This document shows positions 12,369 through 34,100 of a DNA stretch of 38,434 nucleotides, piece by piece. A program made the position numbers and the translations under genes. The stretch comes from a virus. Within the stretch, counting starts at the first letter, position 1; each line of letters opens with the position of its first letter. The stretch lies in IMG/VR virus record IMGVR_UViG_3300025141_000282, positions 1 to 38,434 of that record. One strand, given 5' to 3'. Below the pieces are notes generated by a model. The model saw only the letters and a program-made list of their open reading frames with translations, made no database searches and had not been told where the DNA came from.

Positions 12369-15300
12369 CTACTCTTTTCCCCTGGGGGATGACGCGCCCT
12401 CGGTCCTTTGTTTTGTTGTTGTGGTCGTTACTGTTTTTCCCTCTTCGTCCCCTCCGCCTTGTAGTAGGCTTCTTTTTCCGGCCTCTGGAGTTTCAACAGT
12501 TTGTGTTGTAGTAGTAACTACTTCTTTTTCTAGTTTTTCAAACTTGACCTCTGCATCAATTTTCGCCAATTCAACCAATGAGCAATAATCATATGGCCAA
12601 TTATAGCTATATTCTGGTGTAGTGCTCTTTTTGCTGCCTATATCAAACTTAAAGAGTGCATCATCTAGGGTGTCGGCTGTTTTTTCATAATAATTTTGCT
12701 TTGCCTTTTTCTTAACTTTAAAAACTATCCAATGCAAATCTGTCTCCGGTATGTCTTTCATTAATTCATTTTTTAAAAATTTATGACAAATCGTTACTTG
12801 CGATTCTTTAAAAGATCTTCCAATATCTGGTGGCAAGTTTTGCCAAATGTCAGTTACATCTTTTTGAGTTAACTGGTGTTCAAACTCGAAAAAATACATT
12901 GCAAACGGCTTAACTTTGCTTTTTCCGGGGAACTCGCGTTTTTGTTCTCTTTCCATCTGAGTGATAAAATCAAATTTTGGAGGAATAACATACTCGGTCA
13001 TTGCAGCAATCATATTATAAATCGACTCTGAGGTCTCAGACTCTGGCTGCGGCACCCCTCCATTGACGGCCTTTATTGCTTTTTTAACAGTGCTTTTGTT
13101 TAAATTAAAAAATTTGGTTGTGATCGCGGACGTGCGGGGATTGCGTGAATTGGTAAAGGGTATTAAGACAATTGCTTCTTTAATAGAGACTTCGCTGTCT
13201 TTTGTTGGTTTGCCAATTTTCTTTCTAGTTGATGAGGCTTGCGAGGATTGAATAAATCCACATTTTTGCGCCAAGGAACCAGTCCTTTTCATATCGGCTG
13301 GAATATCGATAATGTAGTCGTTTGCATTTTTTATATAAAGATCGCCCATTAAGTGATGATTTTGAGGCTCGGTAATTTCTACAAATATGCCCGATGATCC
13401 AGACGGGATGGTGCCAAGTTGATGCCACATTCCTTTTCCGGCGGACCCGGAGCCTATTAATGGCAAAGTCTGGGCGGAGCCAGTAAAATTCAAGCATGGA
13501 GTTTCCCATTTGGTTTGTATAACCCAGCGCGAACCTTGATCAAAGCCTCCTATTTTAGTGCTTTTTACGTCGCCGTCGGAAATTTCGGCCTCAGATTCAT
13601 TAACAATTTGAAATAAATTAAAACTAGAACTAATATGCATAGCATTGTTATAATCTATAGATGCCGAATGGCCTGCCCCGGGGATATCTGTGGCCAAAGG
13701 ACCAGCGCCATAATTTGGGCTCTGATTAAGGTTGGCATAGAAAAGGCCATTTAAAGCGCCATAACTATAAGAAGCTGTTTTCATAGCTGTATGATCTGAT
13801 GCATCTTGATAGATGCCATCTCCCTGAATGCCGGCTGTCCCCATAAAGCGAGCATACGAGGCTGTCGCATGCGTTATGATTTCCGGTATAGTATAGCGGC
13901 CCGGGCCGTTATATGGCGTAAACGAAAGCCTAACGCGAGCCTTTCCGCTCCAATAGGGCGGTGTAAATGGATTTCTTGCTGCTCCGGTCATAACATTCAC
14001 GGGCTTACTAGCAGATCCGCTAAATTCAAAAGATTGGTCAACTAGGGGTCCAAATGCGCCCCAATTATCATACATTTCCATCCTTGCAGGGTAATCTGCA
14101 GCATGTATATGAACCGATTCATAGTCGGTACTCATCACTGCCGTATCATAATTGTGTGATTTATATATATTAACATCCATCATGTATGGCTTTGTTTCTT
14201 CGAAGAAAAAGAAATTTTGATCTGTATCAAGGGCGGACTGAAAATTTGTTAGCTCTCCGCCATCTAAAAAGAATTCGACGCTTTCAGCCAAGAAATTATG
14301 CATGGCCATTTCATACAACGGCGAAGTGCTACCTCCGCCCCAGCGTACTATCGAGCCGAGTGAGGCTGACGGATGTGGATTTGAGTCCGCGATATGTTTG
14401 CCTGCTAAATATTCTCTTGGATTGATCAAAGCTTCAAATGGAACTCTAAAATCAAAATTAGTCCCAATCCTAGGAAATGAAATCGATGGCGTGGCATTAT
14501 TGTTCGCTGTGCAATTATCTACAGTATTATTTGCTGTGGAACCAGTAAATGCGCCGGTTGGGAATGTATTTAAGTGCACTGGCCAGTCTACAGCGAGGCC
14601 AGATTTAATAGAATTAAATAATACTCCAGGAGCGAATAGCGGCTGGAAAAATGTTCTATTATGGCTTCCGTTAGTCAAATCTGGCTTAAAGCGATTTCCA
14701 TCTTTATCTAGTGGAAGCCGAGTAATGTCATGAGCATATGAGCCAGAAAATAGCTGAAATAATTGAACTGTTCTTTGCGCAGGATAAAAGCCGTGATAAG
14801 GCAAAAACTTCATCAAAGCTTTGCATGTTAATTTAATTTCTGACGGGCCGGAAAAGCCTTTTTCAAGATCTTTCACTACTTTGAAGTTCTTTAAGAAGTC
14901 ACCATGAGAATAAATTTTCCACCAATTATCTTCATTGCTAGCAGAAACAGGTGCGGCACCTGTCAATGTTAGAATGTTGTCTCGGTGGGTGAAAAAATTT
15001 CCTTCTTTTTCTTTAATGTAGTGTTCTACGTGCTCGCTGATTCTAAACTCTGGAATTATTGAATAGTCCTTCCCCACTCGTTTGATGTCTTCATTATAAT
15101 CACTATAGCTGTTATAAAATGGATTTTTTCCCGCTTGGGTGCCCGCTTCCCACAGCACATCGCTTGAGAACACTGCACCATTATCGATCCCCCCAGTCTC
15201 ATCCCACTGAGTGTAAGCATAAAGTGGGCCAGCGGTTAAACTCAGATGAGGATCAGAAGAGGCACTATGGTAAATTACATGATTGTTTAAAAGCTCGCCG

Positions 15301-18300
15301 GCACCGCCGGTTTCGCCAACCGCATTTGCCGCAGTTGTAAAATCTAATCTTGCGTCCAAAGACCACATGCTTTGGTTTGAAATTGTTTTACCCGCGGAAT
15401 TTAACACGCTTGTTTGGGCCCTTTCTGCTCTTGAGTCCCTCCAATTGAAATCAAACTTTTGGCGACTTCGTATTTTATCTAGAAATGTATTTTCTTCGCG
15501 CGGCCACATAGTCTCTTTATAAGAAAAGCTAATAAATTCCGGTGCATATGCTGGCATAGAATTATTTAAGTATAATTTTCTAAGCTCATCATATGTTTGT
15601 TCTCCGCCTGGGATGTAAGTGTTCAGCTTTTCAACAAACTTTTTATTGGCAAAAGTTCCTAAATTATTTGCATATGTGTGTTTAAACAATAAGGGTTGCG
15701 TAGTCCCTTTTGGTATTAAAACGTGCTTTATTGGCGAATAGCGAGAGGTGACTACAGATTCTGTAAGGTTAAGGAACGTATGCCCCCCTTTCCCCACTCC
15801 CTCTACAATCGAAAGTATGTTATTGTTACGCTGGTCTCTTGCTATTTGATGATCTCCAGTTCTAAGCTGCTTCCATGAGGGGTATTGTGTCGGACCGTTT
15901 CGATTCAATAGAAGTGCATTTAACATACTTGAGTCGCTAACGGTGCCTAAAGTTGTATTGCCATAAGAATTAGTCGATGAACTTAAAGTATTTGAAGAGC
16001 GAATAATCGAATCAACAACTACATTATTCATCCCAACAAAATCAACTTTTACACCATTGGCGTTTTCAATGTCACTTTGTAATTTAAATATAATATCTGT
16101 CGATGCCTTACCTGCATTCGCATGATCCTTTTCTTGATACCCAATTATAGAATTGGTGGCGGCGCCGGTAATCCACTGTTGTTGCATGTCGCTTTGTGGA
16201 ATTGGGCGTTGTATAAACCAATTATCATGAACAGAAGATGTATATACATCTTGGGCAGACGTGTATTTTAAAACTCTTTTGGTGTTCCTATGTGTTTTAT
16301 GGAACGAAGACGAACCATGATAATTTGATGAATTTATAGAGCCATTGCGGCCAGGGTACGAGCCGGCAGATTTAATGCCATCGTTAATGGCGTCGCGGTA
16401 GCTGGAGGAAAATCCCGTATCACTATAAAATCCACCTTTATTTGTATGGTCTGCGAGTAAATTATACAGCGGCATTCGAACGGATAAGTTTCGCCATGGT
16501 AAAGCATTGTAAATGCTTTTTTCTCCAGATTCAATATCCAACATGCCTTCGCACATTGTTGTGGGATCTCCCGGGGCGCTAAATCGCTCAACAAAAACAA
16601 AGCTGTTTGTACCAGACACTGCGCGATCCACTTTTGTATATTCTGGGACGCCATAAATGGGCAAGGCAAATGAATCTGGTTTTTGTGTTGCCAGCCATTC
16701 TACACTAATGCCCTCATTCTCGGTAAAGTGGCGATTATTAATTCCCCTACCGGATGTTTGTACAATTTCATAATCATGCGTATAGTTGCCAATATTAGTC
16801 AGGTTTGAGCCAGTTGTTTGTCTTATGTTTCTGATATTTACAGGTCGTTTTGTATGCTCGTCTCGTGAAAGTTGCGCACGAGGATTTTCTGCGGAATCCG
16901 GCTTGGAAAAGGTTATTGTATTGCTACTAAGAGATATTTTCCAGGCTTCTGCCCGGGTAGCTGGAGTATCCTGGGCGTTAAAATTTATATCCGTATGTCT
17001 GTGCTGGTTCCCTCCAACAAATTTCTCTGTAAACGGACTCTGCAATGGCACCTCGTTTGTTGGACTCGTGGAATCATAATGAAGATTTGTTACATCGACA
17101 CTACTAGAGAAGGTCCCGGATATTTGTTTTATATATCCTCCATCTGCAGTGGTCTTACGAAGATTAAATGGTACAATATAGTCACCATAACTATCTGATA
17201 TTAATGGCGATGTAATCTTAAATGGGATTTTAATTTTTCTTTCGGGTTGTGCCAAGTCTCTTATTTTACCTGCAAGTTCGCCTTCTCGCTCGATATCGGT
17301 TGATAAAATTGTAATGTCGTCTTCTCTAGAAGAAAAATCAACTGTTGGCTTGTGGCCCGAATTCTTTTTGTTTCTATGAACGTTGTGGCCAGATGTAATC
17401 TCTATGGTGCTTTTTCTGTCTACTGTAAAGTTTGCTGGGCTGCGGGAATGGCGGCCATGGGCTTCTTTTATAACTTTCCTAATAGCTTCTCTGGCGTCGT
17501 CAACGGCGTCATCGCCAGTGCGAATATCGCCTGTATTTGAATTTGTTGGTTTGTTTCTTTCCTGGGATATATGCTTGAACAGTGGCCCGGGTTCGGTTGT
17601 GCCGGGTTTAGGCAGATTAGTTGACAATTGAGTGCCAGGAACAATGTTCGGCATTACTGAATAGTTTTGAGTGGCCGGAGGAGCTTGTCCCATGCCAACA
17701 GCGACGGGTGGCAAGTCTTTTGGTCCCCCATCAGATGATTGTGCACCTACGGCCGTTTCAATATCATCAGAAGATCGGTGGCTATCTAAAGTTGGAAATT
17801 TTGCAAAATATTTATTTCTCTCTAAAATATGACTTTCAATGATATTTCGTATTTTATCTGCATGTCTTGCCGAAGCTGGCATTATTTGCACAATCATTTC
17901 TGACAGTGCCCCATCAATCCATTTATAATAATCAAAAAATCTTTCGGTGTCTGGATCTTTTTGCACTTTTTCAAAGAAAAATTGTCTTAATTTTGCTAAA
18001 TCTTTATAATCTTGTCGATATGTGTTTACCGGCTCTCCAATTAAATTATTAAAATCAACAATTGTTGCAAACATATTTAACATTTCTTGAGAAATAATCT
18101 GATGCATGCTCTTTTCGACGGCAAAGAAATGTGTGGTTGGTCTTGTATCTCTCGTGAAAACTTCATCATCGCGAGAGAGAACCTTGACTGTATCAGAGCT
18201 TTGAAGGTTTTCTGGTAAATTCTGTCGGGCAGAATGTATATATTCTCTGCTAATGGAACCAGTATCATTTGGTAAGAAAAAATCTCCCTTACCAGTATGT

Positions 18301-21300
18301 TCTTTTTTAATTATATTTCCAAGCCAGCCGTAACTACTAGACAACCTTACAGCACCATTCCAAGTATTGGCACTTGGAAGAGCCGTAGAACCCGAAGAAA
18401 AATCTTCGACGTTAAAGCTGGCGCTGTTTGTCTGCGCACCATAATAGCCAGCGCTGTCTGAATTTCCAGCATTTGATGCAGACACTGTAGAGAAGTCCCA
18501 ATTTAGTGCCAGGGTATCTATTTGTGGTATTTCCACCGGGAGACCTAGATCCTCGAAAAGATAAGCGCTTCGTCGCGGATGAAGGGTTCCAAAATTTTCT
18601 GGGTCTCGGGCATGAGCTTTGATAACCTCATCATTTAAATAACTCTGCCAATAGCGCGCAGAGGTAATTTTCACATCAGAACGCTGTAGTACACCGCTAA
18701 CAAAATCTGTTCTATGAGCCCCAAGATATACTCTTTTGGAGCTTGTCATAAATTGCGTTCCTTGATCATTTGTAATCGTCCCAGTGACAAGAAATTCATT
18801 TATTACAACATCTGCTTGTGAGTTTACTCCATAAAATTCTACATGATATGTTGTATCGCCCGTAAAAGACCCGTGTACATTTCCGGCAAACGGATAGTTT
18901 GTGGGCTTTACTCGTACGGCGAAATTCCACTTGCTGTTATCATATACATTAGAAAATACAGAACTTGTAAGTTCTGGAATTAAAGCGCCGTCGAGGCCCG
19001 TGTCGGAGCCCGTTAGCATAAAATAGGCATCTTTCCTGTTATAGCCTTTGGCGCTAACAATATCAATAGAGTCTGTTTTTCTTATTGCATAAACTTGAAA
19101 ATTACTTGGATCTGCGTCGTACCAAGATAAATCTGTTAAATTCTCACTGCCATCGCTAGAGCCGGATTGTTTTGCTGTGTGTATTCCAAACAGCGAAGAA
19201 GTCATATTGGAAAAATGTGTGTAATAAGGGCTAGCCGGAGAGAATTTTTTGGGAAAAATAACTTCTGCTTCCATTGTCATTGGCACACTAGCTGAAGCAC
19301 CGTTAATGGCTCCAGAAATAAATGAAGTGGAATTAACATTCGAACTAGCTGTGAATTGATAAACGGTGGCCTCATTCCTGTCAGGGTGGCTAAAATCGAC
19401 TGCCTTCTTTTTTACAGACAAGGAACTAAAATTATTTTCGAAGGCGTACGTAACATTATCACCGTAAAGATTAAGTTTTAAAAGCTCGTGGCCAACGCCA
19501 TAGCATCGAATTAGATTTCTAAACGCCTTCTCAGTTCCCTTGGATTTATAAATATAAGATAAGTTGTTATAGATATTTTGATATATTTTATTTTTTATGT
19601 CATAAAGTTTTTCTGCAAACAGTTCGCTCTCGCCTCTATTGAGAAAATATTCAATAATTTCTGCGTCTGGGAAGAGATCTGGAGCTATGAAACCTTTTGC
19701 TTCCAACAGCCTATTTGTAAATGGGTATGGCTTTTGCGTTCCACTTAAATAATTAACATTTTTAATTCTCGGCAGCTCTTGTATCTGCAAATATAGTGTG
19801 TCTAGATATGTTGCAATGATTTGTGTTAATTTTTTGAGTGTTCCGTCTGTATCTTCTTCAATAATCCAAGATGGGAAGGAGTTATAAAGAGAGGAATTAT
19901 TCCTGTAATCGTATTCTTTTCCTATCAACATCGATGAAGTTAGCAGCGAATCGACTTTTGCGTGCTCTGAATATAAAATTGGGTCTAAAAATTCAAAACT
20001 GGCACTAGCAAAAGACGATGAAACAATTGCCGATCCAGTGTTCCTAGACGTAGTTGTGTAACCATTCCAAGCGCCGTTGCTAATTCTGCCAGAATAATCT
20101 AATACGGTATTATCAATGCTGGCGGCGCCGACAATTCCTTCATTAAATTTATAGTAGACTCCTAAATCAGTATTTGCAGTATCCGTATTTGCGCCGCCGC
20201 CGACTTGGCTAATCCAATATCGCCCAATATCTTGCGCTGTTCTGTTTGTTTTCCAGAATCTAAATTCATCCAAAGAAGCCGATAGCTTGCCCCAGCCCAA
20301 ATCTGTACTTTGAAAGGATGCAGATGGGGCACTAGCTAGTGCTCCAACTGTTGCAACCATTGCACCGCTGACATAATCTATAGTTGCAGTAGAAGCGCCT
20401 TTTGCAAGATTGTCGGAGGAGCCGGCAATCGTACTATCGCATTGACCGTCGATATATAATTTTGCTAGCAAATTACTTCCGGAATTAGCAACAGAGATTG
20501 CATAATGATGCCAATTCCCGTCCGCCATGGTGCTTGTTGTGACCGATCCAGAGCCGAGAGATGCAGTCGCAAAGCCTACATTTCCGGACATATAAGTTAA
20601 AAGAAGTGGAGAGAAAGTGCTTGAATCTGCGCTTGGATATCCACCAGTTAATTCAATTGTCATGCGGCCGTAACCATCTGCAGTATAAGCTGCATTGGCC
20701 GTATATGTATCGAATATTACTTCCCTGGCTCGCGAGCCAGAGAAAGCATCCTTTCTCATCCAAAATTCTACAGTATTTCCATCTGCGCCGTCGATTTTTA
20801 GATTTGATTCTCTATTTTTTGAAAGATCAAGTAAATTTGAATAGCCACTTTTGTAATCCCCAGAGGCGTTAGTGATTTCCTTGCCTTTCTCTCTTTTACT
20901 AACATGCGGGCCGCCCTTAAAGAGAATGTATTCTCCCAAAGAACTGCTTGTATAGTGGGTCGATTCATTTGCCACTAAGCCCCAGCCGTCTGCTGCAAAT
21001 GTAATATATCCAGTTGTTCTGGGATATCTATTCTCAAAAATATAATTTTCGAAATAAGAAGAACTATTGTGCCAATCTAATTTTTCTTTTCGAGAGCCGT
21101 CATATGGGTAAGTTTTATAAACTCTTTTGATGGCATCTTCGTAGTATTGCTCTGCTAAGCCAAATTTTGCAAAATTTGATGCACTTGTAAAGTCTACATG
21201 TGGTACAAATCTATCTTTTTCTTCTATAAAAGATTCAATATACCCTGCAGACTCCACTTCCTTTCCAGCAGTCTCCACGTCTGTAGATGTTAGAATTGTT

Positions 21301-21341
21301 TTTAATTCGTTATCTTTGCTAAAGATCTTCTTAATGCTCAT
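12369..21341 (-). CDS. Giant baseplate wedge-like protein: LamG, tail-protein-I-like, LamG-like
   Basis: A 2990-residue protein. Residues of about 170-385 form a LamG/concanavalin-like sandwich: VEFWMRKDAFSG, DGNWHHYAISV (about 275), AKLYIDGQ (about 295) and LDEFRFWKTNRTAQDIGRYW (about 356-375). Residues of about 480-625 resemble P2 tail protein I, whose T4 counterpart is gp7: LKKLTQIIATYLDTLYLQIQ, KGFIAPDLFPDAEI, then YIYKSKGTEKAFRNLIRCYG leading into LLKLNLYG. A second sandwich-like region spans about 645-910 and closes with ITSARYWQSYLNDEVI. A helical domain follows (about 1040-1180), then a Pro-rich linker (about 1205-1270) and a long beta-rich part containing YKETMWPREENTF near 1940. The C-terminus is helical, then Thr-rich (VVTTTTQTVE, TVTTTTTKQRTEG). 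T4 gp7 is 1032 residues, so this would be nearly three times larger. The gene lies downstream of the gp25 and gp6 homologues, where gpI/gp7 is expected. Confidence 0.8.
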   Translation of the reverse strand: MSIKKIFSKDNELKTILTSTDVETAGKEVESAGYIESFIEEKDRFVPHVDFTSASNFAKFGLAEQYYEDAIKRVYKTYPYDGSRKEKLDWHNSSSYFENYIFENRYPRTTGYITFAADGWGLVANESTHYTSSSLGEYILFKGGPHVSKREKGKEITNASGDYKSGYSNLLDLSKNRESNLKIDGADGNTVEFWMRKDAFSGSRAREVIFDTYTANAAYTADGYGRMTIELTGGYPSADSSTFSPLLLTYMSGNVGFATASLGSGSVTTSTMADGNWHHYAISVANSGSNLLAKLYIDGQCDSTIAGSSDNLAKGASTATIDYVSGAMVATVGALASAPSASFQSTDLGWGKLSASLDEFRFWKTNRTAQDIGRYWISQVGGGANTDTANTDLGVYYKFNEGIVGAASIDNTVLDYSGRISNGAWNGYTTTSRNTGSAIVSSSFASASFEFLDPILYSEHAKVDSLLTSSMLIGKEYDYRNNSSLYNSFPSWIIEEDTDGTLKKLTQIIATYLDTLYLQIQELPRIKNVNYLSGTQKPYPFTNRLLEAKGFIAPDLFPDAEIIEYFLNRGESELFAEKLYDIKNKIYQNIYNNLSYIYKSKGTEKAFRNLIRCYGVGHELLKLNLYGDNVTYAFENNFSSLSVKKKAVDFSHPDRNEATVYQFTASSNVNSTSFISGAINGASASVPMTMEAEVIFPKKFSPASPYYTHFSNMTSSLFGIHTAKQSGSSDGSENLTDLSWYDADPSNFQVYAIRKTDSIDIVSAKGYNRKDAYFMLTGSDTGLDGALIPELTSSVFSNVYDNSKWNFAVRVKPTNYPFAGNVHGSFTGDTTYHVEFYGVNSQADVVINEFLVTGTITNDQGTQFMTSSKRVYLGAHRTDFVSGVLQRSDVKITSARYWQSYLNDEVIKAHARDPENFGTLHPRRSAYLFEDLGLPVEIPQIDTLALNWDFSTVSASNAGNSDSAGYYGAQTNSASFNVEDFSSGSTALPSANTWNGAVRLSSSYGWLGNIIKKEHTGKGDFFLPNDTGSISREYIHSARQNLPENLQSSDTVKVLSRDDEVFTRDTRPTTHFFAVEKSMHQIISQEMLNMFATIVDFNNLIGEPVNTYRQDYKDLAKLRQFFFEKVQKDPDTERFFDYYKWIDGALSEMIVQIMPASARHADKIRNIIESHILERNKYFAKFPTLDSHRSSDDIETAVGAQSSDGGPKDLPPVAVGMGQAPPATQNYSVMPNIVPGTQLSTNLPKPGTTEPGPLFKHISQERNKPTNSNTGDIRTGDDAVDDAREAIRKVIKEAHGRHSRSPANFTVDRKSTIEITSGHNVHRNKKNSGHKPTVDFSSREDDITILSTDIEREGELAGKIRDLAQPERKIKIPFKITSPLISDSYGDYIVPFNLRKTTADGGYIKQISGTFSSSVDVTNLHYDSTSPTNEVPLQSPFTEKFVGGNQHRHTDINFNAQDTPATRAEAWKISLSSNTITFSKPDSAENPRAQLSRDEHTKRPVNIRNIRQTTGSNLTNIGNYTHDYEIVQTSGRGINNRHFTENEGISVEWLATQKPDSFALPIYGVPEYTKVDRAVSGTNSFVFVERFSAPGDPTTMCEGMLDIESGEKSIYNALPWRNLSVRMPLYNLLADHTNKGGFYSDTGFSSSYRDAINDGIKSAGSYPGRNGSINSSNYHGSSSFHKTHRNTKRVLKYTSAQDVYTSSVHDNWFIQRPIPQSDMQQQWITGAATNSIIGYQEKDHANAGKASTDIIFKLQSDIENANGVKVDFVGMNNVVVDSIIRSSNTLSSSTNSYGNTTLGTVSDSSMLNALLLNRNGPTQYPSWKQLRTGDHQIARDQRNNNILSIVEGVGKGGHTFLNLTESVVTSRYSPIKHVLIPKGTTQPLLFKHTYANNLGTFANKKFVEKLNTYIPGGEQTYDELRKLYLNNSMPAYAPEFISFSYKETMWPREENTFLDKIRSRQKFDFNWRDSRAERAQTSVLNSAGKTISNQSMWSLDARLDFTTAANAVGETGGAGELLNNHVIYHSASSDPHLSLTAGPLYAYTQWDETGGIDNGAVFSSDVLWEAGTQAGKNPFYNSYSDYNEDIKRVGKDYSIIPEFRISEHVEHYIKEKEGNFFTHRDNILTLTGAAPVSASNEDNWWKIYSHGDFLKNFKVVKDLEKGFSGPSEIKLTCKALMKFLPYHGFYPAQRTVQLFQLFSGSYAHDITRLPLDKDGNRFKPDLTNGSHNRTFFQPLFAPGVLFNSIKSGLAVDWPVHLNTFPTGAFTGSTANNTVDNCTANNNATPSISFPRIGTNFDFRVPFEALINPREYLAGKHIADSNPHPSASLGSIVRWGGGSTSPLYEMAMHNFLAESVEFFLDGGELTNFQSALDTDQNFFFFEETKPYMMDVNIYKSHNYDTAVMSTDYESVHIHAADYPARMEMYDNWGAFGPLVDQSFEFSGSASKPVNVMTGAARNPFTPPYWSGKARVRLSFTPYNGPGRYTIPEIITHATASYARFMGTAGIQGDGIYQDASDHTAMKTASYSYGALNGLFYANLNQSPNYGAGPLATDIPGAGHSASIDYNNAMHISSSFNLFQIVNESEAEISDGDVKSTKIGGFDQGSRWVIQTKWETPCLNFTGSAQTLPLIGSGSAGKGMWHQLGTIPSGSSGIFVEITEPQNHHLMGDLYIKNANDYIIDIPADMKRTGSLAQKCGFIQSSQASSTRKKIGKPTKDSEVSIKEAIVLIPFTNSRNPRTSAITTKFFNLNKSTVKKAIKAVNGGVPQPESETSESIYNMIAAMTEYVIPPKFDFITQMEREQKREFPGKSKVKPFAMYFFEFEHQLTQKDVTDIWQNLPPDIGRSFKESQVTICHKFLKNELMKDIPETDLHWIVFKVKKKAKQNYYEKTADTLDDALFKFDIGSKKSTTPEYSYNWPYDYCSLVELAKIDAEVKFEKLEKEVVTTTTQTVETPEAGKRSLLQGGGDEEGKTVTTTTTKQRTEGASSPRGKE

Positions 21342-21343
21342 GT

Positions 21344-22918
21344 TTATTCGACTCTAAATTTAAATGTATCTGCTTGTTCGGTATATTTTCCATTTTCATA
21401 AAAAACATATTTAATTCCATACATATAGCCTTTTTCTAGCAATGACATGTTTAAATTAAAATAACTTCCACTTGTATCGTAAGAAAGCCGTGTATGATTT
21501 AAACTACCAGTGCCAAAATCAATTGCCGTATGATCATCTCTTACCCTATAAATCTTATAATAGGCATCTTCAACAGTGCTGAATTGTACAGTATTTGATG
21601 CCTTAGTATAAATAGTTGGGCTCCAATCTTTTTTTCGAGCAGAAACTCTGAGGCGAGCCGTTTCGGAAGTAGAATATTTCTGTCTAAGGTTTGGCATAGA
21701 AACAACATAATTTGGATTTGGATCGTACCCTGCAGCATTTAAACTTTTTACATTAATTCCGCTGCCGGTGCGATATTGAGTGTGAGTGGCGGCGCCGCCA
21801 GTGTGCCAAACATCAAATATTTTTGTTAATGTTGATGATCCAGTGAGTGTAAATGAAGCTGAATATATGCCAGTTTCAACATAAGAGGCTGTAGTGTTCT
21901 GATCTGCGGCTGTAACAGTTCCGCCGCCGGCTGAAAGTTCTAGTTTTCCGGATGCTGTCGGGTGTGTGTTCGCAGAAGAGCCGGAATATAAACTAACAAG
22001 TATGGTCCCAGTTTCAACCACTGGGATGTTTTTTAATTGCCCTTTTACATAATTATAAAAATACAACTTCATTAGATTATCAGAAGGAGAGGCGAGAGAC
22101 GAACTTAGATAAAAATTCCCTCTATTGTCTTTTTTAGATGAATCCCATCTTGCTTCTATTACTGGCCTCTTGAAAAAATATTCAGTGCCTCTGGCAAAAA
22201 ATTTCTTTGTGTAATATGAAATTGTTGAGCCCGTTGGGTTGTGTAAAATGCCTACATTTTCTTCTGATCCTGTATATATTGCCTCCTGGCTGCTTGTTAA
22301 AAATACACCTATACCATATCGTGCACTTGATTTGTCCCCAAAGACATTGCCGGCTGAATTAACCCATTGTTCAACTAATGGTGTGATGTCCATCTCTATA
22401 TCTTCTGTGCCATTATCAAAATTTTGCTTAAAAGAAGAGCTTGCAAAATTTAAATCATAGTCGCCACCTGGGCGTGCCCAAGCTGTGCCGGGCTTTGTAT
22501 TCATCCAATCTGAACCAGTAACACCTTTTGTCAAGTCTGTGTATGTTTCCATATCTAAGCCGTCGCCTTCTTCCCAGTCGGCTGTTACGGCTGAAGCGAC
22601 CAAAGTATAATTTTTAGGAACTGTGGTGGCATGCTCCGCGTTAAACATTCTTAAATAAAAGCTAACACTTCCGGAAGCTGGTATGTCGCTGTTTGTTCTA
22701 TCTGTTGCAATATCTGCTGCAGGGAAGTTGATTAATATTCTTGATAATTCGGAAGTTTTTGCGGCGTCAGAGCCGCTAACTGCTTGACCATAAATTGAAA
22801 ATACCTCTAGACTATCAGAAGCGCCCATATTCGAGCCAGTACCGCGGGTTGTAAGATTGGCTTCAAAAGCGTTGGTTATTGTTGTATCTGCATTCGCAAC
22901 ATATCTCTTAATCGCCAT
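21344..22918 (-). CDS. Virion structural protein with DNRLRE-like N-terminal domain
   Basis: A 524-residue beta-rich protein. The first 245 or so residues follow the plan of DNRLRE-type beta-sandwich domains: an opening RYVANADTTITNA, a central RILINFPAADI strand, then VTADWEEGDGLD near 111-122, WARPGG, MDITPLVEQWVN (about 177-187) and YGIGVFLTSSQEA. These domains are common in large surface and adhesion proteins. The C-terminal half has further sandwich-like repeats ending in YKIYRVRDDHTAIDFG and YMYGIKYVFYENGKY. It overlaps the gp6-like stop in TAATG, with AAAGGAA upstream. It sits between the J-like and I-like genes, where simple contractile tails have nothing, so it may be an added wedge accessory or cap. 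The domain match is from pattern only. Confidence 0.83.
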   Translation of the reverse strand: MAIKRYVANADTTITNAFEANLTTRGTGSNMGASDSLEVFSIYGQAVSGSDAAKTSELSRILINFPAADIATDRTNSDIPASGSVSFYLRMFNAEHATTVPKNYTLVASAVTADWEEGDGLDMETYTDLTKGVTGSDWMNTKPGTAWARPGGDYDLNFASSSFKQNFDNGTEDIEMDITPLVEQWVNSAGNVFGDKSSARYGIGVFLTSSQEAIYTGSEENVGILHNPTGSTISYYTKKFFARGTEYFFKRPVIEARWDSSKKDNRGNFYLSSSLASPSDNLMKLYFYNYVKGQLKNIPVVETGTILVSLYSGSSANTHPTASGKLELSAGGGTVTAADQNTTASYVETGIYSASFTLTGSSTLTKIFDVWHTGGAATHTQYRTGSGINVKSLNAAGYDPNPNYVVSMPNLRQKYSTSETARLRVSARKKDWSPTIYTKASNTVQFSTVEDAYYKIYRVRDDHTAIDFGTGSLNHTRLSYDTSGSYFNLNMSLLEKGYMYGIKYVFYENGKYTEQADTFKFRVE

Positions 22919-24735
22919 TATTTAATTGTTCCTTTGATGTCCACATTTGGAAATTTAATTTCAAAAATTCCATTTTCTGGCATTGCAACATATCTACCAT
23001 CTGGTGATAGAAAATAATCTATATCATAATGAATTTGAGAATATTCTGGGCCAGATCTTTTCACGATTTTAACATTTGTTGTATCGGCGACTCCGCGGAT
23101 TCTATTTAAAACTTTATAAACATCGGTTATGTAAAGATTCTCTCCCATTGAAAATATTTTATCAAAATAGAATTCTTTTAATTTAGTGGTGGCCAAACTT
23201 AAAATTTCAAATTTATTACTTTCCACTACGCTTACAATTTCGAACTCGATTCCAATATTAACAACATGTCCATCTAAAATATCAATCGTGTCGTTAATCA
23301 TTTTGTATTGATTTAACCAAGTTTTAATATTTGATTTTAACGTACTATTTGGTATCGTCAAGTGCCCGTTAGCGTTCTCAGTTAAAGCATAAACATTTAA
23401 ATTACGCTTAAACGAATCTACGTCCGGTATGATATGGCACTTTGCAACCGCCCCAAAGCCGGGGGGCATTCTGTAGATTATATTTTGATAATCTTCTAGC
23501 GTCACTGCTCTATTTTGCGTAGGGAACGTAGAACGAATTCTATGTTTAATTTCTTCTAAGGTTGGAAAAGAAACATCACCTGTAATCGGCGATTCATTAT
23601 TGACCTCCAGTGAGCCAACAACATTTTGAATTGTGTTAGCATTTAATGCTACACCTTCTAAAACTGAAGGAAACTCAAAAACTGGAGAGCCAACAACAGT
23701 TACTGTATTGGTGGTTGCATTCGAGTCTTCCGTCGAAGCAACTCTGTATGTGACTTGTAAAGTGGTATTCGATGGGCTTATTCCAAACTTGTCTGATGAT
23801 AATAGATTTGTTGGATCAAAAGCTTCGTCTGTGATATGATTTCTTCCGTGAATTTTTAAAGCCAATTCGCTTGGATCCTTGAGACTGGCATTCTCAGAAG
23901 AGACTTCATTTTCGGAGCCGTAGCCAAATTGTAAAAATGTTCTACCTCCTTCTTTCTCGACAACAAATCTGCGCGGTACGGAAAGGAGTTTCATTATCGA
24001 AGGTGTTGTGGTTTTGTCAGCATTTTTATTTGGAATTGGAACTATCACCACGTCTTGAGATAAAAAGTCGACTTCAAACCATTCATGCCCGTCGCTATCC
24101 GTTACGGATAATATTTCTAAAACTTTATCGCCGCCGGCCAATTCTGTTCTATAGAATGAAGAATACTCTCCAATATCAATAAAATCTATTGCAATTTCTC
24201 CAGCAATAACTTGCCCCTGCGCTTTTATAGCATATTGCGTCACCGCAGAAGTGGAATCATCAAATTTTGCTGCAATTACTTCATTTGCTTCTCCGGAAAA
24301 ATCAATATTTTCGTTTAATATGTATATATTGCCGTTTGTACCATTGAAAGTGCTGCCCTTTTTCAATAGAGGGGCATAATCTAAATCAACTCCGATTCCA
24401 TTAGAATTCGCAGGAGCGAGAATGTAAAACGATAAAACACCAGTAGCAGTTGAAAAGCGCTCATGTTTATAGCCCAACTCTCTACCATGTCTTATTACAT
24501 TATCGATCTCTATGGATGTGTCTAAAAAAGATTCATTCGCTTGATAGTCCAGATAGAAAGAAAGAATATCGCCAACATAAGCCACAGTATCTAACATCAG
24601 CGAGCCAAAAGATGCCTCGTTGAAGTCTTTAAACGTATTTGGGTAATATTTTTTTGTATATTCAATTAAATCACTTTTAATACTCGCAAAATCCCTACTA
24701 GTGTATTTAATTGGTACATTCTCTTTTATAGCCAT
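22918..24735 (-). CDS. Baseplate wedge protein, gp6 / baseplate J family
   Basis: A 605-residue protein with the N-terminal signature of T4 gp6-type wedge proteins: YTSRDFASIKSDLIEYTKKY (11-30), FNEASFGSLMLDTVAYVGD (38-56), LSFYLDYQANESFLDTS (58-74) and RHGRELGYK. A second block typical of baseplate J proteins is found at about 390-430 (IRSTFPTQNRAVTLEDYQN, then IIYRMPPGFGAVAKCHIIPD). T4 gp6 is 660 residues, so the length is close. In contractile tails two copies per wedge form the inner iris that ties the wedges to the tail tube and sheath. The C-terminus, with FYFDKIFSMGENLYITDVYK, matches the dimerising end of the family. It is 23 bases downstream of the gp25 homologue with an AAGGA site, as in the conserved W-J arrangement. 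Confidence 0.92.
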   Translation of the reverse strand: MAIKENVPIKYTSRDFASIKSDLIEYTKKYYPNTFKDFNEASFGSLMLDTVAYVGDILSFYLDYQANESFLDTSIEIDNVIRHGRELGYKHERFSTATGVLSFYILAPANSNGIGVDLDYAPLLKKGSTFNGTNGNIYILNENIDFSGEANEVIAAKFDDSTSAVTQYAIKAQGQVIAGEIAIDFIDIGEYSSFYRTELAGGDKVLEILSVTDSDGHEWFEVDFLSQDVVIVPIPNKNADKTTTPSIMKLLSVPRRFVVEKEGGRTFLQFGYGSENEVSSENASLKDPSELALKIHGRNHITDEAFDPTNLLSSDKFGISPSNTTLQVTYRVASTEDSNATTNTVTVVGSPVFEFPSVLEGVALNANTIQNVVGSLEVNNESPITGDVSFPTLEEIKHRIRSTFPTQNRAVTLEDYQNIIYRMPPGFGAVAKCHIIPDVDSFKRNLNVYALTENANGHLTIPNSTLKSNIKTWLNQYKMINDTIDILDGHVVNIGIEFEIVSVVESNKFEILSLATTKLKEFYFDKIFSMGENLYITDVYKVLNRIRGVADTTNVKIVKRSGPEYSQIHYDIDYFLSPDGRYVAMPENGIFEIKFPNVDIKGTIK

Positions 24736-24758: not shown

Positions 24759-25151
24759 TTAATTAGTTTGATTAACTGTTATATTCAAAATATCAGTTAC
24801 ATTTAATGGTTTAATAAAATACTTTATTCTCACTTCTATAGAATTAAGTTCATTATCAGGAACATCTTCTTTTGGTGATAATACAACCGCACTAACTTCT
24901 AAAAAGGGCATATATTTAGAAACTTGTCTTGTAATGTGTGCTGTAATTTGCTGGTGTATTTCCGAGATATTGTGTTCAAATAAATAATTTCTAATTCCAA
25001 CTCCAAAAGTTGGATCCATCACTCTTTCTCCGGGTGCAGTAAGAATTAAATTTTTTAAATTTTGCGTCACAAGTTCACTATAAGATTTTATTAACGCATG
25101 GCCATCAATATTATCAATTGATAATGGCAGTTTAGGTGCTAATCCTGGCAT
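24759..25151 (-). CDS. Baseplate wedge protein, gp25 / W family
   Basis: A 130-residue protein (T4 gp25 is 132 residues). The family core is clear: the helix HALIKSYSELVTQNLKNLIL (18-37), then TAPGERVMDPTFGVGIRNYL (38-57) running into FEHN, then the helix EIHQQITAHITRQVSKYMPF followed by the strands SAVVLSP and IEVRIKYFI. GER and DPxFGxGIRxxLFE are hallmark residues of the GPW/gp25 fold. In the assembled tail this protein is part of the wedge core and contacts gp6 and gp53, and it helps start sheath polymerisation. It has one of the strongest SD sites in the window, AAGGAGG at seven-base spacing. No C-terminal extension or fusion is present. Confidence 0.95.
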   Translation of the reverse strand: MPGLAPKLPLSIDNIDGHALIKSYSELVTQNLKNLILTAPGERVMDPTFGVGIRNYLFEHNISEIHQQITAHITRQVSKYMPFLEVSAVVLSPKEDVPDNELNSIEVRIKYFIKPLNVTDILNITVNQTN

Positions 25152-25178: not shown

Positions 25179-28100
25179 TTATGCGAACCATTCGCCACCT
25201 TCGCCTTCTCCAATCAGTGGATCGTAGTCTGCATTATAAAATGATGCTTGCTTAGTAGATATTAATTCATCGAAATAAGAATCAATATGAGACATCATTG
25301 CTTCTGCGAATTCTTCTCCGGATGCGTCCCAGAAAGGAATTGGCTTTTCTTCAGAAAAATCCAGTTCTCCGAATCCAAGGCCTTCCGGATCTTGTATGGT
25401 AGAATTAATCTTGCCAGCAACTTGATCAAAAAACTGCATTGCCGTTTCAAGTTTGAATTTAGCTGTGCAAATTCCATAATTCTCAACAATGTCAGCAAGA
25501 TCTTCACATGGCGGAATATTTTGAATCCTTGATTTAAGATTATTCCACACAGTCATCGCCTGAATTATAAGTCCGGGATATGTTGTTTCGCCGTCCCAAT
25601 AAAGATAATCATAATAAGGAACTCGGGCCCAAGAAACCTCATACGACGAGGGGTCGTCGAAGGCGCCGAGCCATGCGATCCTAACTTCATCACCTACAAG
25701 TACGTTATAACAACCGCCGTCTTTGGTACAGGGTTTAAAGCCGGCTTTCGGGCGCAAATATACAGGGAGGTTGCCGTTGGGTCCGGTGTGATGGTAACCC
25801 TCTTTTGTTTTGAGCCTTATTACTGATGGCAAATCATCTTCCGTTTTGTAGTCGGCTAACGTTTTCCCGTTATACCGCTCGGCGACTGTTAATGTGGCCT
25901 TCTTTACAACCGGATCAGCTAATAGATATTCATTTATATCGTCTCTCAACTTAGCAAATGGAAGCTCGCCGATGGTCTCAGTATTAGAAGGAAAATGTTC
26001 TGCAGCAGTATCTCCTGGTCCCATCTTTTTAGAGTTTACATAATCCATAGCAGATGGCCCTGGTGGGGACTCTCCCAAGAAAGGTTTGAAATATTCGTCA
26101 TGCTTAAATTCATAGGCTCTGATGATTTCTTTGAGTACTATTTTTTGCACTCTATATGGTACAGTTATTTTATCTACTTCTTCATTGGTATTGACCCACT
26201 CTGAGGCTAAAGCTCCGAATGGCATCTTTAATATTGTATCTCCATTTTTTGGCTCCCATAGAAGAGTGGTTGGATTCAGCGGCCAATCACTAGTTTCATC
26301 ACTACCGCCATATTCAAGATTGTTGACCGCGGTGTGGACTAAGGAGCGAAGTGACACTTTTAACTCTTCATTTGAGCTAACCATGTCTTCATACGCCAAT
26401 ATGTACTCGTCTAAAAGTTCAAATATGGGAGATAATTTATTTTGCAACTCAAACGTGTCGCCATAAGTCTCAATGGCCGTATAAAAAGCGCTTGTAATGG
26501 AAAACGATTCGTCATCTGCAAAATATTTAAAAAACGCATCTTGCGTTTTTTGTGAAACGCCACCTTTTGTCATTATTTTTCTTAACATTTTAATATTTTC
26601 ATCTGGTTCTGGTGTCTTTTCAGGGCAGACCAGTGTTTCGTCTTCGAGATCTCCAAACCAAGGGTTTTTATCTGTTTTATTCAAAAAATATGCAACCCAG
26701 CCGGCCGGCGTCCATGGATATTTTTTCCAATTGGGATCAATTAAAGTAACAAGACCCTTAAGAATTGATACTGGAGTTGCAGCTGCGAACATTGCGGCCG
26801 TTGCCATCACTGGTCCGAAAAAATTAGGCATGCCCAAGGCGGCAGATTCAGATGAAGAAACTTTTGGATTATCCTCATATCTTTGGGCGTTTAAAACTGT
26901 ATAAAAATTTTCTCGCAGTAGGCGCTTGGTATTTAAAAAGACCTCTTTAAATTGTGGCATCTTATCTGTGCTCATAAGTGTATAAAATGTCATCATTGTT
27001 GATATGTTATTTAAACTAATAAGTCCGGGTGTTTCATTATTAATTTTATTGAATAGGATATTAAAATCATTGTTTGATATCATTTTCTCAAATAACTCTT
27101 GGTACGGAAAATCTTCCCAAGCGTTAATAGTTATAAAATAATCTAATTCTACGTCTAGGCCGCCGGCGACCGGTGTTTCAACTTCTGCGAAGGGAACCTC
27201 ATAGTATGCATGTGTTTTTGCGCCTGTCAATATGTTAATGTCGTTTTTTAAGAAATACGAAATATTTACTTCGCCGGTCTCGTCATTAGTTGTTGAGACC
27301 TTATCAAAAAGTTGTTCCTCAATTGAGTCGTCCGTGCCCCACTCGGCTACTTGATACCAAGCAGAATCCCCTTCGACGGCCGCGGCGGTGGTGGGGGGAT
27401 ACACATATTCAACACCACGAAATGCCTTTTTGGTTTTTTTAACTTGATTAGCATTCCAACCTAGGGTCTGAAAATCGGTGTTATGACTGAACGCCCCCAT
27501 TATAGATTGTCCATCTATTTGATCTGAAAATTCTTTCCCTGGTGTTTCTGGTAAAATATAGGCCAATCGAAGGCCATACGACCACCCATTAAAATACTTT
27601 TGATAGGAAGTCTTTGACTCTTTTTTGAGTGTTAACCAAATTGAAAAAGCGTCAGTGCCAAATAGATCATTCCACTCTTGCAGGTTAAAATAAATGCCCT
27701 CTCCGAAGGTCGAGCCCGGGGGATCCAACAAGTTTATATCTCCATGAAATGCTTTTTCAATATTAAAAGTGAATTCTTCAAGAGCAGTTAATGTTTTTTC
27801 TACATCGGCATAGACTACTTTTTGAAGCTTATCCACTATAGCCATAATATTTTTACGATAACCTATTTGCATACCTAATAATGCACACTTATGCTTTCTG
27901 AACCACCAATATTTGGAAGACCATTCTATTTTAGCTTTAGGCGTACACCAGCCTGCTCCGCCTGGCATCCAACAATCTTCTTGAAAGTCTATACCTTCTA
28001 CTTTATTGCCGTCTGGGGTCCACATACTCTGGACCCATGGGTCATTCCATAAAAATCCAATTAAAATTCTTTCCGCACGATTTCCAAGAGAATCCGTCCA

Positions 28101-31100
28101 TTTCTCTCTATTTAATCCCAAATTACTAATTGGCATGCCCGGCGCGGCGGGAACTGGGGTATTTTCTGTGAAACCGAGGCAGGACCGGTTTCCCCAGATT
28201 TCGCCGGCGTGGTCCTGATCATCAGTTCTTCCAAACCAATTTTTCCAGGCTTCACCACCGGGATAGAGATATGCATGTCTATTTATACCAGTAGTTGTCC
28301 ACGCGGGAAACTGGCCTCCAATAAAATCCATCGGGGCAGCATGTTTGCTAATATCATAATTTTTTGGCAATTGATAATCGGGGTCCAATAATTTTGGATT
28401 ATCAAGGTAGTGTCTCACTCTTTTTTCTATCAGTAGAGATCTAATTTTTTCTCTTTCTTCTTCTGTTAAATTAATAAAATCAGTTCCGGTTTCGCCGGCA
28501 GTATGCATTGAAGCGCGTATATATGGCTGTAATACAAAGCCGCCGCCTTTCACTTGATCATAAAAATCCGTGGGAGCAAAAATATTAAATGTTTGGTCGT
28601 GCATTGTTTTTGTCTTAAACTCAAAAAATCTTCCGGCGCCGTCGTACCGCGAGAGCGCGTCGGATAAATTTGAGGCACGAGGAAATGCATCTACCAATAA
28701 GTTACTATCAGATACCCTTTTCCAATTTGTCGGTACAGATATGCCATCAAATTCAAGCATTCTTAGCCACATTCTCTTGATATCCTCAACATAAGCATTG
28801 GGTACTGCATTGTTTACCTTATCTTTAAAGTATTTTACGGTATCCAATAATTGTTCTCGCATTAAGAATCGAATTCCATTTAAGCCATAAAGATCTTCAA
28901 AATTACTTGATGGGTACGGCTTCCCTTCGCTGAATAATTGGCCACCGTCAAGTTCTATCTTTTTTGTTCTATTTTTCATTATTTGGTTTGCATATCTAAG
29001 CACGTGCTTTTGATATTTAGGAACAAAAGGCTCCACTGCAAATTCAATTTGTGGGGGGCTTAATACTGTCATATTTGTAATACAAGAAGAAACGCCGGGC
29101 GGGCAAGAAAGCCTTCCGTCTTCATTTTCAACCAACTCGGGCCCACTCTTATAGACATGGTTCACTATTGCGGTCGAGGGTATCCTGGGAAACTTACCAT
29201 CTCCTGGATATCGAGCTATATGTCCTGGTATAGTAATAACTTTTTTCGTTCTCGTACGCCAAGTTTTCGGATCATACGTTTTTGATATTGGAACAGCATA
29301 TCGTCTAGGTGATGCGGCTGGTTGTGGTGGTTCTTCGATAGAAGTTTTCCCAAGCCTTTCGCTAGTATATGGCTCGATTTCTACTATAGCAGGGTTTTTA
29401 TCGTGTATTTTAGAATTTATTGTGGGTGTCGCGACTTCATCTACGCTTTTCAAATCTTCCAATACTAATTCTACTAAAAATTCGACTACTTCGTCTCCTA
29501 TAATGCCATCATAACCAACTGTAAACATCATTGGAAGAGTTTTCATTACCGCCTCAACGCTGTATAATCTTAGCAAAGTTAAAACTATTGCCTCGGCCGT
29601 AGCTACAGATAAAGATGGTGCATCTTGTCCCATTTTATCATATTGTTTAAGCGCACCTGGCCAGCGCCTCTGTACAGCACAATCAATATCCTTACTCCGC
29701 GACTTTGCATATTGTTTAAAGGCTTTAACGCGAATTAAACTTGCATCATTTTCTGGATGGCAAGTTTCTCCGACGGGGAAAACCTGTTGTGGTACCATAG
29801 AAGAAAATATCGACCTAAATCTAGTTGGAGTAATATCAAAAAACTTTGACTGGGATGCTGCAAAGGCAAACCTCTCCATGACTGAAATCGTCATATTGTT
29901 GAAGAGTTCTCTTATTTTTTCTTCTGGGGTTTTTGTATTGCTGATATCCATCCCCGACCATGGGTCTGGATATTTATGCGGAAACGGACTTAACTTGCCA
30001 ATAAAAAAGTCTACAAATGTATCGGACATTTTTGAATACATAACATTGCCATTGGAATCATTTGAATTTGTGTCGACGTCGCCTGGTAATGAAAGCGAAG
30101 GTTTCAACAAAGTGGGGTCGAGCGATACGAGGTCGACGTTTGGGTTATCGCCAAGTGTGGGGTCTTCGGATCCCAAAAGTTTTGCAGGTTTAGCTGACCA
30201 ATTTATTTTACCGGCGTCGACAAGGTAAGAGTAAAAGAAATCATCGCCATCTTTATCCTTCCATGTTATAGTGATTGTATATTTATCTGCACTATTAGGT
30301 GATAGTTGATATATAATACGACCTTCTGCACCGAGTGGATTATCTATTTTTATTTCATATGTATTGTCGGAAAAAATCTCATTTCCTTCGAAAATCGTGC
30401 CCTGGTTCGGTTTCCACATTATTTTGTCTGGTACGTCGACGATCTTCATTAACTCTTCATTATCGGTCGCCTTTTGTATATTATAAAGAGTTGCAGCATA
30501 TTTTTGATCATTGATATCTGTAATATCTGGTATGAATGTATTAAAATCTTCTTTTAGTTGACCCAACAACATATTAGACATGCCGCCCTGCAAGGCTTTA
30601 AGAATGTCTCCTGGTGTATTATCATCGGTTGGTACTACAGAATTCGCAAATAAGGTTTCTGCTTCGCTTCCTGCTAGTTTCAAATACTTATCCATAAAAA
30701 GATGAAAATCTGACCTGAACGTTGCTTCGATGGGGTGAAAAACCATATCTAATAAATTCTCATTTATAAACCCTAGCGGCTCAACATCATGAGGTAATAT
30801 GCCCTCCCTTTCCCCATCGCACCATATTGGCGGAGTATCAACGGGGTTTTTCCCTGCTGCTAAATCTAAAGCGAAAGATAAGCTATTGTATTGTTCTTCT
30901 TCCGCTTCTTCTATACAATTGTTTAAACCTTCTTCAGTTAGCCAATCTTGCAATAAATAACAGCGCGCATCCTGCTGAGCCGGCATTGGCATGCAGCAAG
31001 TAAAATTTTGATCTATCTCTGCCAATGAAACCGTTAGGTCTTCACAATATCCGTCTTCTAATAGATTTTCAAATTGTTTGAAGAAATTTGCAATTGCAGC

Positions 31101-34100
31101 ATCAATCGCATATCTTTCCCCTCTAGATATTTTCTGAAATATACCAGGATATCTCACTTCTAGCAAGTTTCTTACATACTGTGCAACATTTGGATCTGGC
31201 TTGCCCTTAAAGAGGTCGCAAATTTCCACTGCAGATAGAAGCAATTCTATATCGGATAGAAGTTTTGAAAAATCTTCTACATCACACGCCTCTGGTGTAA
31301 AGCCATATTGATCTAATATTTGACACATTGCTTGGGCGGCTTCGTCTGGGTTATCTTCTAGTAGATCTCTAAAATTAGCCTGCCCGGGCCTTCTGGGTCT
31401 GTCGTCCTCTGGGTCCTGGAGTTCTCGACACCATTCCCAAATTTCCTTCAAAAGATACTTGAGTGTCTCTGTTACAATCGAGGAAATCTGCCAAGTAATA
31501 AATTTGTTTAACAGCTCTCTTGCATAATGAGTGATTGGGTCTGATGGTAATTCTGGCCATGCCGGTTGTTGAAATCTGTTTGGTTGGCCTTTTCCTTTCT
31601 CGCCTTCTTTTTGTATTTTTTCTATGGAATCTTTTGTGCCTTTTTGTGATTGAGATGAATTATATATCATTTCAGCAAAATCTATTGCATATTTAAGAAT
31701 ATTTTTACAAATCTTATCTTTAAGGTTTGGATCACTCAAATTACTTATAATTCTAGCAGTTTCCCTACTAGCTCTTTTTGCCTCTTCTGCTTGTTCGTGA
31801 CTTATCGGCAAATAAGAGCCTGCAGAAGCGTTGTATTTTGCAGAATATTCATCTAATTCGACTAGTTGCCTCCTACCCTCGTAATCATTTATCTCGTTGT
31901 TAATGTTGTCTATTCTTTCTTGTTGTTTTGGTGTGGGAGCTGAGTCTGTGGGGATTTCCTTCTGAACCTTAGTTCTTAGCTCAACTAATCGTAAAATTTC
32001 TTGATTATATTGTTCTTTTTCATGTTCTAGTTTGACATATTCAGTTTGCTGAACTGCTTTTGATTGTTGTACTTGATTTACTACTTTTCCAAAATCTTTG
32101 TTCGCCTGCATTAATGATTCTAATAGGCCACTCTTCCTTAAGGATTCTAAAAGGCCGTCAATCCCCATATTTTCAAAAATATAGCGGCATAAAAGCTCCA
32201 ACCAGCGGTCTGGTGATAGGCATCTTATCATTTTTATAGCTAAAGTTTTTACATCAGCATTATTTAAGACTTGTTTGTAGATGCCGCTTATAGGATGTGG
32301 CATGCCGCCCAAACGAACCCGCGGTGGAGTAGGGCCGCCAACAATATCCATCATTATAGAATCAGCAGAATTTGTAAAAGCCTCTGCAGAATAATATTTT
32401 TCATACTTATTTGACCAAGATTGATCAGCTAATAGAGAAAAGTCTTCTTTTTCATCGTCTTCATTGGTTGATGGGTTCGTATCAAGGCGCGCCTGTTCAG
32501 CGTTTTTGTACCTATTAAGTACTGCCTGCGGTTTGGGTTCTTTGAGGTATTCATATTGATAATTATAGATATATTCTTCTACAAACTTTTGAAAAGAAAC
32601 TGTTTCCAATAATTTTTTTCTATCGCCTGTTTTGAGGAAGTTTGCAAATGCTTCTTGGTTGTCTGTCGGGCCTTTACAAACATTAGAATAGTGATGTATT
32701 TTGTATAAAAAATTAACAACCATTTCTGATTGGACTGCTTCGTCATTTCTAAAGTCGCTTAAGTGTGTTAGCAATATGCGCTTGCCACCTTTCTCATTGG
32801 TATCGCTACCCCGAATCTTCCCTAGGCGGCCGACAGCCAGGGCGCCCGCTTGATCAAGGTCATCCCAACTAACATCTTCACTGCTAAATTCCTTTTCCGG
32901 AACATATTCAGTTACCATAAGCACTCGTGTGCCTTCTGGCGGTACATATTTTACGGGATAGCCATCGACCCATTTTACAACTGTTTTCTCACCTTTGGTG
33001 AAATACACTTCTAGAATATTACCATCTTTACCAAATCTGTTATCAGCCGTCCTGGCAATCTGATCTGGTTTCAAGCTTGCAAAGTCTGCATCGGATTCCT
33101 CTGTGGTAATATCTTTATCATCATAATACGATGGATCGTCTTTCCACTTATCGCTTTTCATAACAGTTGCTATGTCTATATCTTCATCTTTAGCATCTTG
33201 GGCGCGCTTTGGCATAAAATATGTAATAGGTGTTCTTGATGACTTGTCAGCCAACTCTTTTAGGGCTTGACCAAACGCTCGGACATCATCTGCCATGGCA
33301 CCTAAATCAACCTGTACAGCATGTTTCTTTTTCTGCTCTGTAGTGAGGCTGCCTATTTCCACATTCTGCGTGGCTCCTGTTTTCATTAATCTAGTTTTTG
33401 GGATATAAAGGCCACCCTCTGGGGAGGCCGCCAGCAACTCCACGGTTTGGTAGAACTCTAAGAGGCGTGCCATTTCATCAAAATGGCTATCAATATCTCC
33501 AATTTTAATTTTAAGAGAGCGTTTCGGGTCTATTTCAAAATATCTAGCATAGCCTGGGGAGCCGCCAAAAATATGCCTATCGTGTGGCAATCGTTTTAAA
33601 GCTTTTGTTTTAATCCCTACAAGAAACCGCAAACCCGGACTAACTGCATTGGACACTTCATTATTTCCGCGTGCCTCAACGGTGTAATCGCCAAATTGTA
33701 TAACATGCTCTTGGCTGCTTCCAATTAACCCGGAGTCGTCGCTAAAGTGCCTTTTTATAAAGGATTGTATCGTGCTGTCATCTGATTTTCTACCTGCAAG
33801 TTTAAAAATGTGCTTTAAAGATTCACGAACAAATTTATCAAAATGCTCTCTTATTGGAGTATCTTTTAGTGTGCTACCTGTGGCGTTCCAAGATGCTGGA
33901 TCTTTTTGTGTCGCATTCGCGTAATTAAACCAGTCGACAATAAAATAAGACCATTCAGTATTTTCTATTTCTTTAATGCGGCCGGTAGGGCTTACATTTT
34001 TTTGCTCATCTTCTACATCAGACCATTTGGGCATATAGATAGATTTTTCATATTTACGCCACTTAATGTTACGCTCTAGTACTATTTTTGCAAAATCATG

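Follow-up and report, generated by a model that had tools for sequence, protein, structure and literature searches.

Gp7-type wedges of contractile tails, giant proteins at the gp7 position of cyanophages, and wedge proteins with binding modules are already known. In T4, gp7 (1032 aa, phrog_964) is encoded directly after gene 6, and accessory sequence of another kind, ∼640 residues long, comes before its core. P2 gpI (PF09684, Tail_P2_I) is a protein of 176 aa without inserts. The cyanophage giants (S-SCSM1 SSCSM1_15, 4120 aa; ACG-2014j, 3516 aa) are encoded directly after gp25–gp6; a helix of the gpI type and a KGT lie close to their N-termini, with thousands more residues behind. Another wedge-protein accessory domain, YHYH (PF14240), is strong in these giants (L316:8137-20499, 1e-26; L317:17776-28326, 5e-30).

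In TssG, the gp7 homologue of the T6SS, two loops protrude from the sheet and each anchors one trimer of TssK, a relative of receptor-binding protein (PMC6300606). Phage A-1(L) anchors its long tail fibre through a domain inserted in the wedge protein gp31B (PMC10966104). Given these two cases, a loop of the gp7-type fold is a known attachment point. Vp4 Gp119 is a baseplate wedge 3 (BW3) protein with carbohydrate-binding modules that are absent from its homologue, Deep-Blue Gp177, and its binding to host cells is experimental (PMC11406892). Evolved Dit of siphophages, a core protein of the tail tip, has acquired carbohydrate-binding modules as insertions (PMC6669499, PMC10688798). In the open-licence literature that we searched, we found no description of LamG inside a gp7-type fold in a large lineage.

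A 2990-residue protein at the gp7/gpI position

The window analysed here is the whole of a virus record of 38,434 bases. Its minus strand carries a baseplate operon consisting of gp25/W, gp6/J, a gene for a 524-aa protein and a 2990-aa gene (Table 1). As the first-pass annotation had stated, clear homologues of W (PF04965, 4e-15) and J (phrog_219, 5e-19) lie directly upstream in transcription, with the 524-aa protein separating gp6 from the 2990-aa gene. The order gp25–gp6–X–2990-aa-type gene is common to relatives, and two isolated phages have the same order plus one further gene. The position after W/gp25 and J/gp6 is that of the wedge family, with one extra gene between, and the order in Microcystis phage Mel-JY01 is similar.

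We consider it probable that residues 1–1190 form a gp7/gpI-type wedge subunit with two LamG jelly rolls (LamG1 ahead of the core, LamG2 inside it) that most likely bind glycans or neighbouring proteins, and that residues 1200–2990 are a fused second unit.

Table 1. Coordinates of features in the window, with the evidence for each
Feature	Positions	Strand	Evidence
gp25/gpW wedge subunit	24759..25151	-	PF04965 4.2e-15
gp6/gpJ-like wedge subunit	22918..24735	-	phrog_219 4.6e-19; identity 31% to Mel-JY01, 30% to immuto
524-aa protein between gp6 and gp7-type gene	21344..22918	-	Mel-JY01 counterpart, 24.6% identity
2990-aa gene, gp7/gpI position of baseplate operon	12369..21341	-	ORF list; 21 relatives in viral contigs
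Conserved wedge module, residues 1-1190	17772..21341	-	Alignment with 18 relatives; 146 full-length modules; ORF stops soon after module in L013, L227/L228, L252/L253
LamG1 with conserved tail, residues 161-445	20007..20861	-	PF13385 in 17/19 members, e.g. L008 168-343; LamG/pentraxin fold matches
N-terminal part of putative gp7/gpI-type core, residues 455-640, KGT 601-603	19422..19979	-	A2 alignment; hhalign prob 96-98% to Mel-JY01, immuto, LR756508; gp7 set E 4e-4
LamG2 and tail, inserted within putative core, residues 641-1045	18207..19421	-	AF2 pLDDT mostly 75-97 over jelly roll; Foldseek laminin LG4-5, agrin LG, lectins; conserved flanking spacings
C-terminal part of putative core, residues 1046-1190 (strand, helices, PASA, LERNK)	17772..18206	-	A3, mean column identity 61%; hhalign prob 95.5% to LR756508, 96.9% to three-relative profile
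Second unit, residues 1200-2990	12372..17744	-	No Pfam match; own gene in L013, L015 (apparently L014 too)

The first-pass annotation had placed the wedge-like segment in a single 2990-residue protein. The wedge module is residues 1 to ∼1190; what follows is a second unit, encoded on its own in some relatives. L013 and L015 have two abutting genes, the first corresponding to residues 1 to ∼1190 and the second to ∼1350 to 2930, and in L227/L228 and L252/L253 the ORF stops 115–122 residues past the wedge module; because of these arrangements, we regard the 2990 residues as two units. In another relative (L014:14929-15046), the two halves lie in frames overlapping by 118 bases, where a gene boundary and a frameshift are both possible. 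The separate encoding in L013 and L015 could also be taken to mean that unrelated genes were joined into the long ORF by faulty assembly, but many independent contigs have intact single ORFs of ∼2820 to >4000 aa and homology is collinear across the full length among relatives, and we regard such an artefact as highly improbable.

A whole-protein scan returned 21 loci among viral contigs. Scans with two core segments gave at least 592 and at least 437 confirmed stretches, with several contigs common to both lists; the wedge-module family is therefore large, and the module is found in hundreds of viral contigs. One copy lies in a MAG titled WOR-3 chromosome (L138). We rejected it as a prophage, as runs of N stand beside the module and no gp6 match occurs in that genome; it is likely a binning or scaffolding artefact.

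The putative core and the stretch between its halves

The first-pass annotation covered a span (18550–20850) equivalent to residues ∼165–931 of the 2990-aa protein, and pointed to a pattern there that was said to mirror tail protein I. The pattern is indeed present: KSKGTEKAFRNLIRCYG occupies residues 599–615, with LDTLYLQIQ before it and the LNLYG strand after it, at 623. KGT occurs in 130 of 133 aligned modules, the window counted, and KGN in the remaining three.

Using hhalign, we matched the window core to proteins of Mel-JY01, Immutovirus (immuto) and the huge phage LR756508 with probabilities of 96–99%. Immutovirus gp161 (immuto35A_161, 1265 aa) and Mel-JY01 WWT39511.1 (1336 aa), both annotated 'hypothetical protein', share the operon position as well as the homologous core, and LR756508 has a 1401-aa counterpart with a homologous core. 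A search of the literature on structural proteins of immuto and Mel-JY01 yielded nothing useful.

More distant comparisons, which gave moderate profile support, were made with a gp7 set consisting of the T4 gp7 family (residues ∼640–800) and the N-termini of the two cyanophage giants. The core matched this set with E 4e-4, a value that none of 100 column shuffles reached, and with a probability of 35% over ∼33 columns around KGT; the set was assembled once KGT was known, and hence its statistics flatter the match. The same region of T4 gp7 (residues 646–758) is where its PHROG matches other wedge families. P2 gpI aligned at the same KGT, in the right register (1/100 shuffles), short of significance. 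Direct hhalign of the core to P2 gpI or the T4 gp7 family alone, with both landing on this KGT, gave probabilities of 0.3–2.5%, which are not significant. A weak PF09684 match (E 0.024) was seen in LR756508, at the KGT that aligns with that of the window. Scanning the complete 2990-aa window protein against Pfam and PHROG returned nothing useful, with neither a PF09684 nor a tail PHROG match, and a PDB sequence search gave no significant match.

Residues 455–640 and 1046–1190 are best read as a putative gp7/gpI-type core, remotely homologous to the described proteins. Like the window gene, gene 7 of T4 follows gene 6, and the helix, 'TKG' motif (STKGIEAS at 736) and strand of T4 gp7 come at near-equal spacing; elsewhere the two proteins have no similarity. 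P2 gpI shares the order of KGT, strand and C-terminal 'PAS' segment, although the window protein and its close relatives do not score PF09684. The cyanophage giants are similar in position and in the helix and KGT, but their core is N-terminal and their accessory domain is YHYH, not LamG. Judged by these alignments, P2 gpI is predicted to be a more distant relative than gp7 of cyanophages and T4-type phages; of the proposed likeness to tail protein I, a gp7/gpI-type core with KGT is what is supported.

The 2990-aa protein could instead be a peripheral fibre or adhesin whose KGT likeness is convergent. Its size, its LamG domains and the absence of a significant match between the window protein and curated gpI or gp7 models are what such a protein would show. 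However, the operon position, the homology of the core to same-position proteins of Mel-JY01, immuto and LR756508, the match to the gp7 set and the absence of another PF09684 match from the longer relatives all argue for a wedge subunit, and we think a fibre or adhesin improbable. As to the last of these points, the first-pass annotation had named a separate gpI gene as evidence against its reading; PF09684 finds no second match in the window, five longer relatives or the immuto and Mel-JY01 genomes, a weak test because this model also misses T4 gp7.

Four proteins allow the stretch between the halves of the core to be compared. KGT and the LxLYG-type strand are 22 residues apart in the window, Immutovirus, Mel-JY01 and LR756508, and the second strand and the PA motif are 80–85 residues apart in the same four. 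Between the strands lie 61 residues in Immutovirus, 350 in Mel-JY01, 419 in LR756508 and 449 in the window. Since the flanking spacings agree while the intervening stretch varies, we conclude that LamG2 is an insertion inside the wedge core. Immutovirus gp161 differs in being without a LamG2-type insert, and neither it nor WWT39511.1 has a LamG Pfam match. LamG2 weakly resembles the Mel-JY01 insert (probability 39.5%, E 3e-4); its similarity to the LR756508 insert was below significance, and a Pfam scan of the window protein gave no match in LamG2. Across 133 aligned modules, the core halves are near-constant in length (185–219 and 131–147 residues), while the LamG regions range over 257–537 and 351–748 residues. 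The predicted core is discontinuous, its second half (1046–1190) lying beyond LamG2. The first-pass annotation had placed the core between two LamG regions; jelly rolls do bracket the segment it named (by PF13385 in relatives, and by AF2 and Foldseek), but LamG2 lies within the core, which resumes at 1046–1190.

An AF2 model of residues 445–1190, based on 102 sequences, had a mean pLDDT of 79 and a pTM of 0.76, with the core mostly at 60–87. Against the PDB, Foldseek matched its LamG2 jelly roll to laminin LG4-5, agrin LG and legume lectin (prob 0.98–1.0, E 5e-4 to 1.5e-3), so that by AF2 and Foldseek LamG2 has a jelly-roll fold. A first model, of residues 1–1190, gave Foldseek matches to pentraxins, neurexin LG and CBM40; its core (pLDDT mostly 27–40) was too uncertain for use. 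All PDB matches of the residues 445–1190 model were LamG-type, with no solved gp7/gpI structure matching the core, and the core assignment hence rests on sequence, order and position. Of the folds that the first-pass annotation had proposed to check by structure prediction, the jelly rolls were recovered and the gpI/gp7 fold was not. The secondary-structure order in this model is consistent with a helical N-part, a KGT helix, and a mixed sheet with helices. Among viral models, the best Foldseek matches were unnamed or uncharacterised homologues.

LamG variation and possible roles

PF13385 (LamG_3) matches LamG1 in 17 of 19 alignment members (best 2.2e-29), the window itself falling below threshold. 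Extra LamG_3 copies were found in long regions, in LamG1 of L002 and L287 and in LamG2 of L247. Mean pairwise identity is 38–40% for the LamG bodies, 47–54% for the core and 62% for the LamG1 tail, and none of the 133 aligned modules lacks either LamG region. The alignment of LamG1 to LamG2 by hhalign was not significant, which gives no support to a recent duplication.

By analogy with the (gp6)2–gp7 unit of T4 and the (TssF)2–TssG unit of the T6SS, we would expect the wedge core to be built from two gp6-like copies joined to the helical N-part, the KGT helix, the strand and the C-terminal helices of this protein. LamG1, ahead of the core, and LamG2, in a loop within it, would project from the wedge, and a baseplate of six wedges would carry ∼12 LamG domains. 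These domains would most likely bind surface glycans, or else neighbouring baseplate proteins. In this way, a load-bearing component of the injection machine may also contact the host surface. The core loop appears to be filled here by a LamG domain, and its comparison with the TssG loops is by analogy.

What the LamG domains contact can be weighed from these data. A wedge subunit whose LamG domains are structural, docking the 524-aa neighbour, the second unit or fibres in the way that TssK trimers are held by TssG loops, and making no host contact, is a reading to which we give appreciable weight, while thinking it somewhat less than an even prospect. LamG folds bind proteins too, the presence of both regions in every aligned module is expected of a structural part, the LamG1 tail is highly conserved, and the gp31B insertion domain of A-1(L) holds a long tail fibre (PMC10966104). 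However, the lower identity of the LamG bodies relative to the core and the extra LamG copies gained by some members are a better fit to variable ligand binding. Because sequence conservation is lower in the bodies than in the core, because LamG domains are multiplied in some members, and because the modules of Vp4 Gp119 bind cells, we place contact with the cell surface somewhat ahead. Vp4 Gp119 resembles the window protein as a wedge protein with carbohydrate-binding modules and differs in being a BW3 of the A511 gp105 type that forms the proximal tail fibre, with other modules and a Bacillus host (PMC11406892).

A bolder proposal is that LamG built into the wedge fold binds surface glycans and relays contact directly to the contraction-triggering wedge, without a separate fibre, in an abundant lineage known almost only from metagenomes; we offer this tentatively and hold it to be rather unlikely. 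On the main reading, lectin-like domains added at a defined site within a conserved wedge fold are the contractile-tail counterpart of evolved Dit, which belongs to another protein family and a non-contractile tail; the coupling of adhesion to baseplate triggering would thereby become testable. The wedge reading also suggests what may be the role of a protein family found in hundreds of viral contigs, whose members in isolates (Immutovirus, Mel-JY01) carry no annotation.

Several other genes in the window were noted. Upstream of gp25 lies a second giant ORF of 2998 aa (25179-34175), whose counterparts in relatives run off the locus edge. The products of 851-2206 and 2241-3419 are two structural proteins, probably paralogues, since their sets of matches among tail-region proteins of immuto, Mel-JY01 and L008 overlap. 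A RuvC-like Holliday junction resolvase is encoded at 289-846 (phrog_159, 2.5e-7), and a gp55-like late sigma factor, with counterparts in immuto and Mel-JY01, at 37535-38218 (phrog_234, 8.8e-7).
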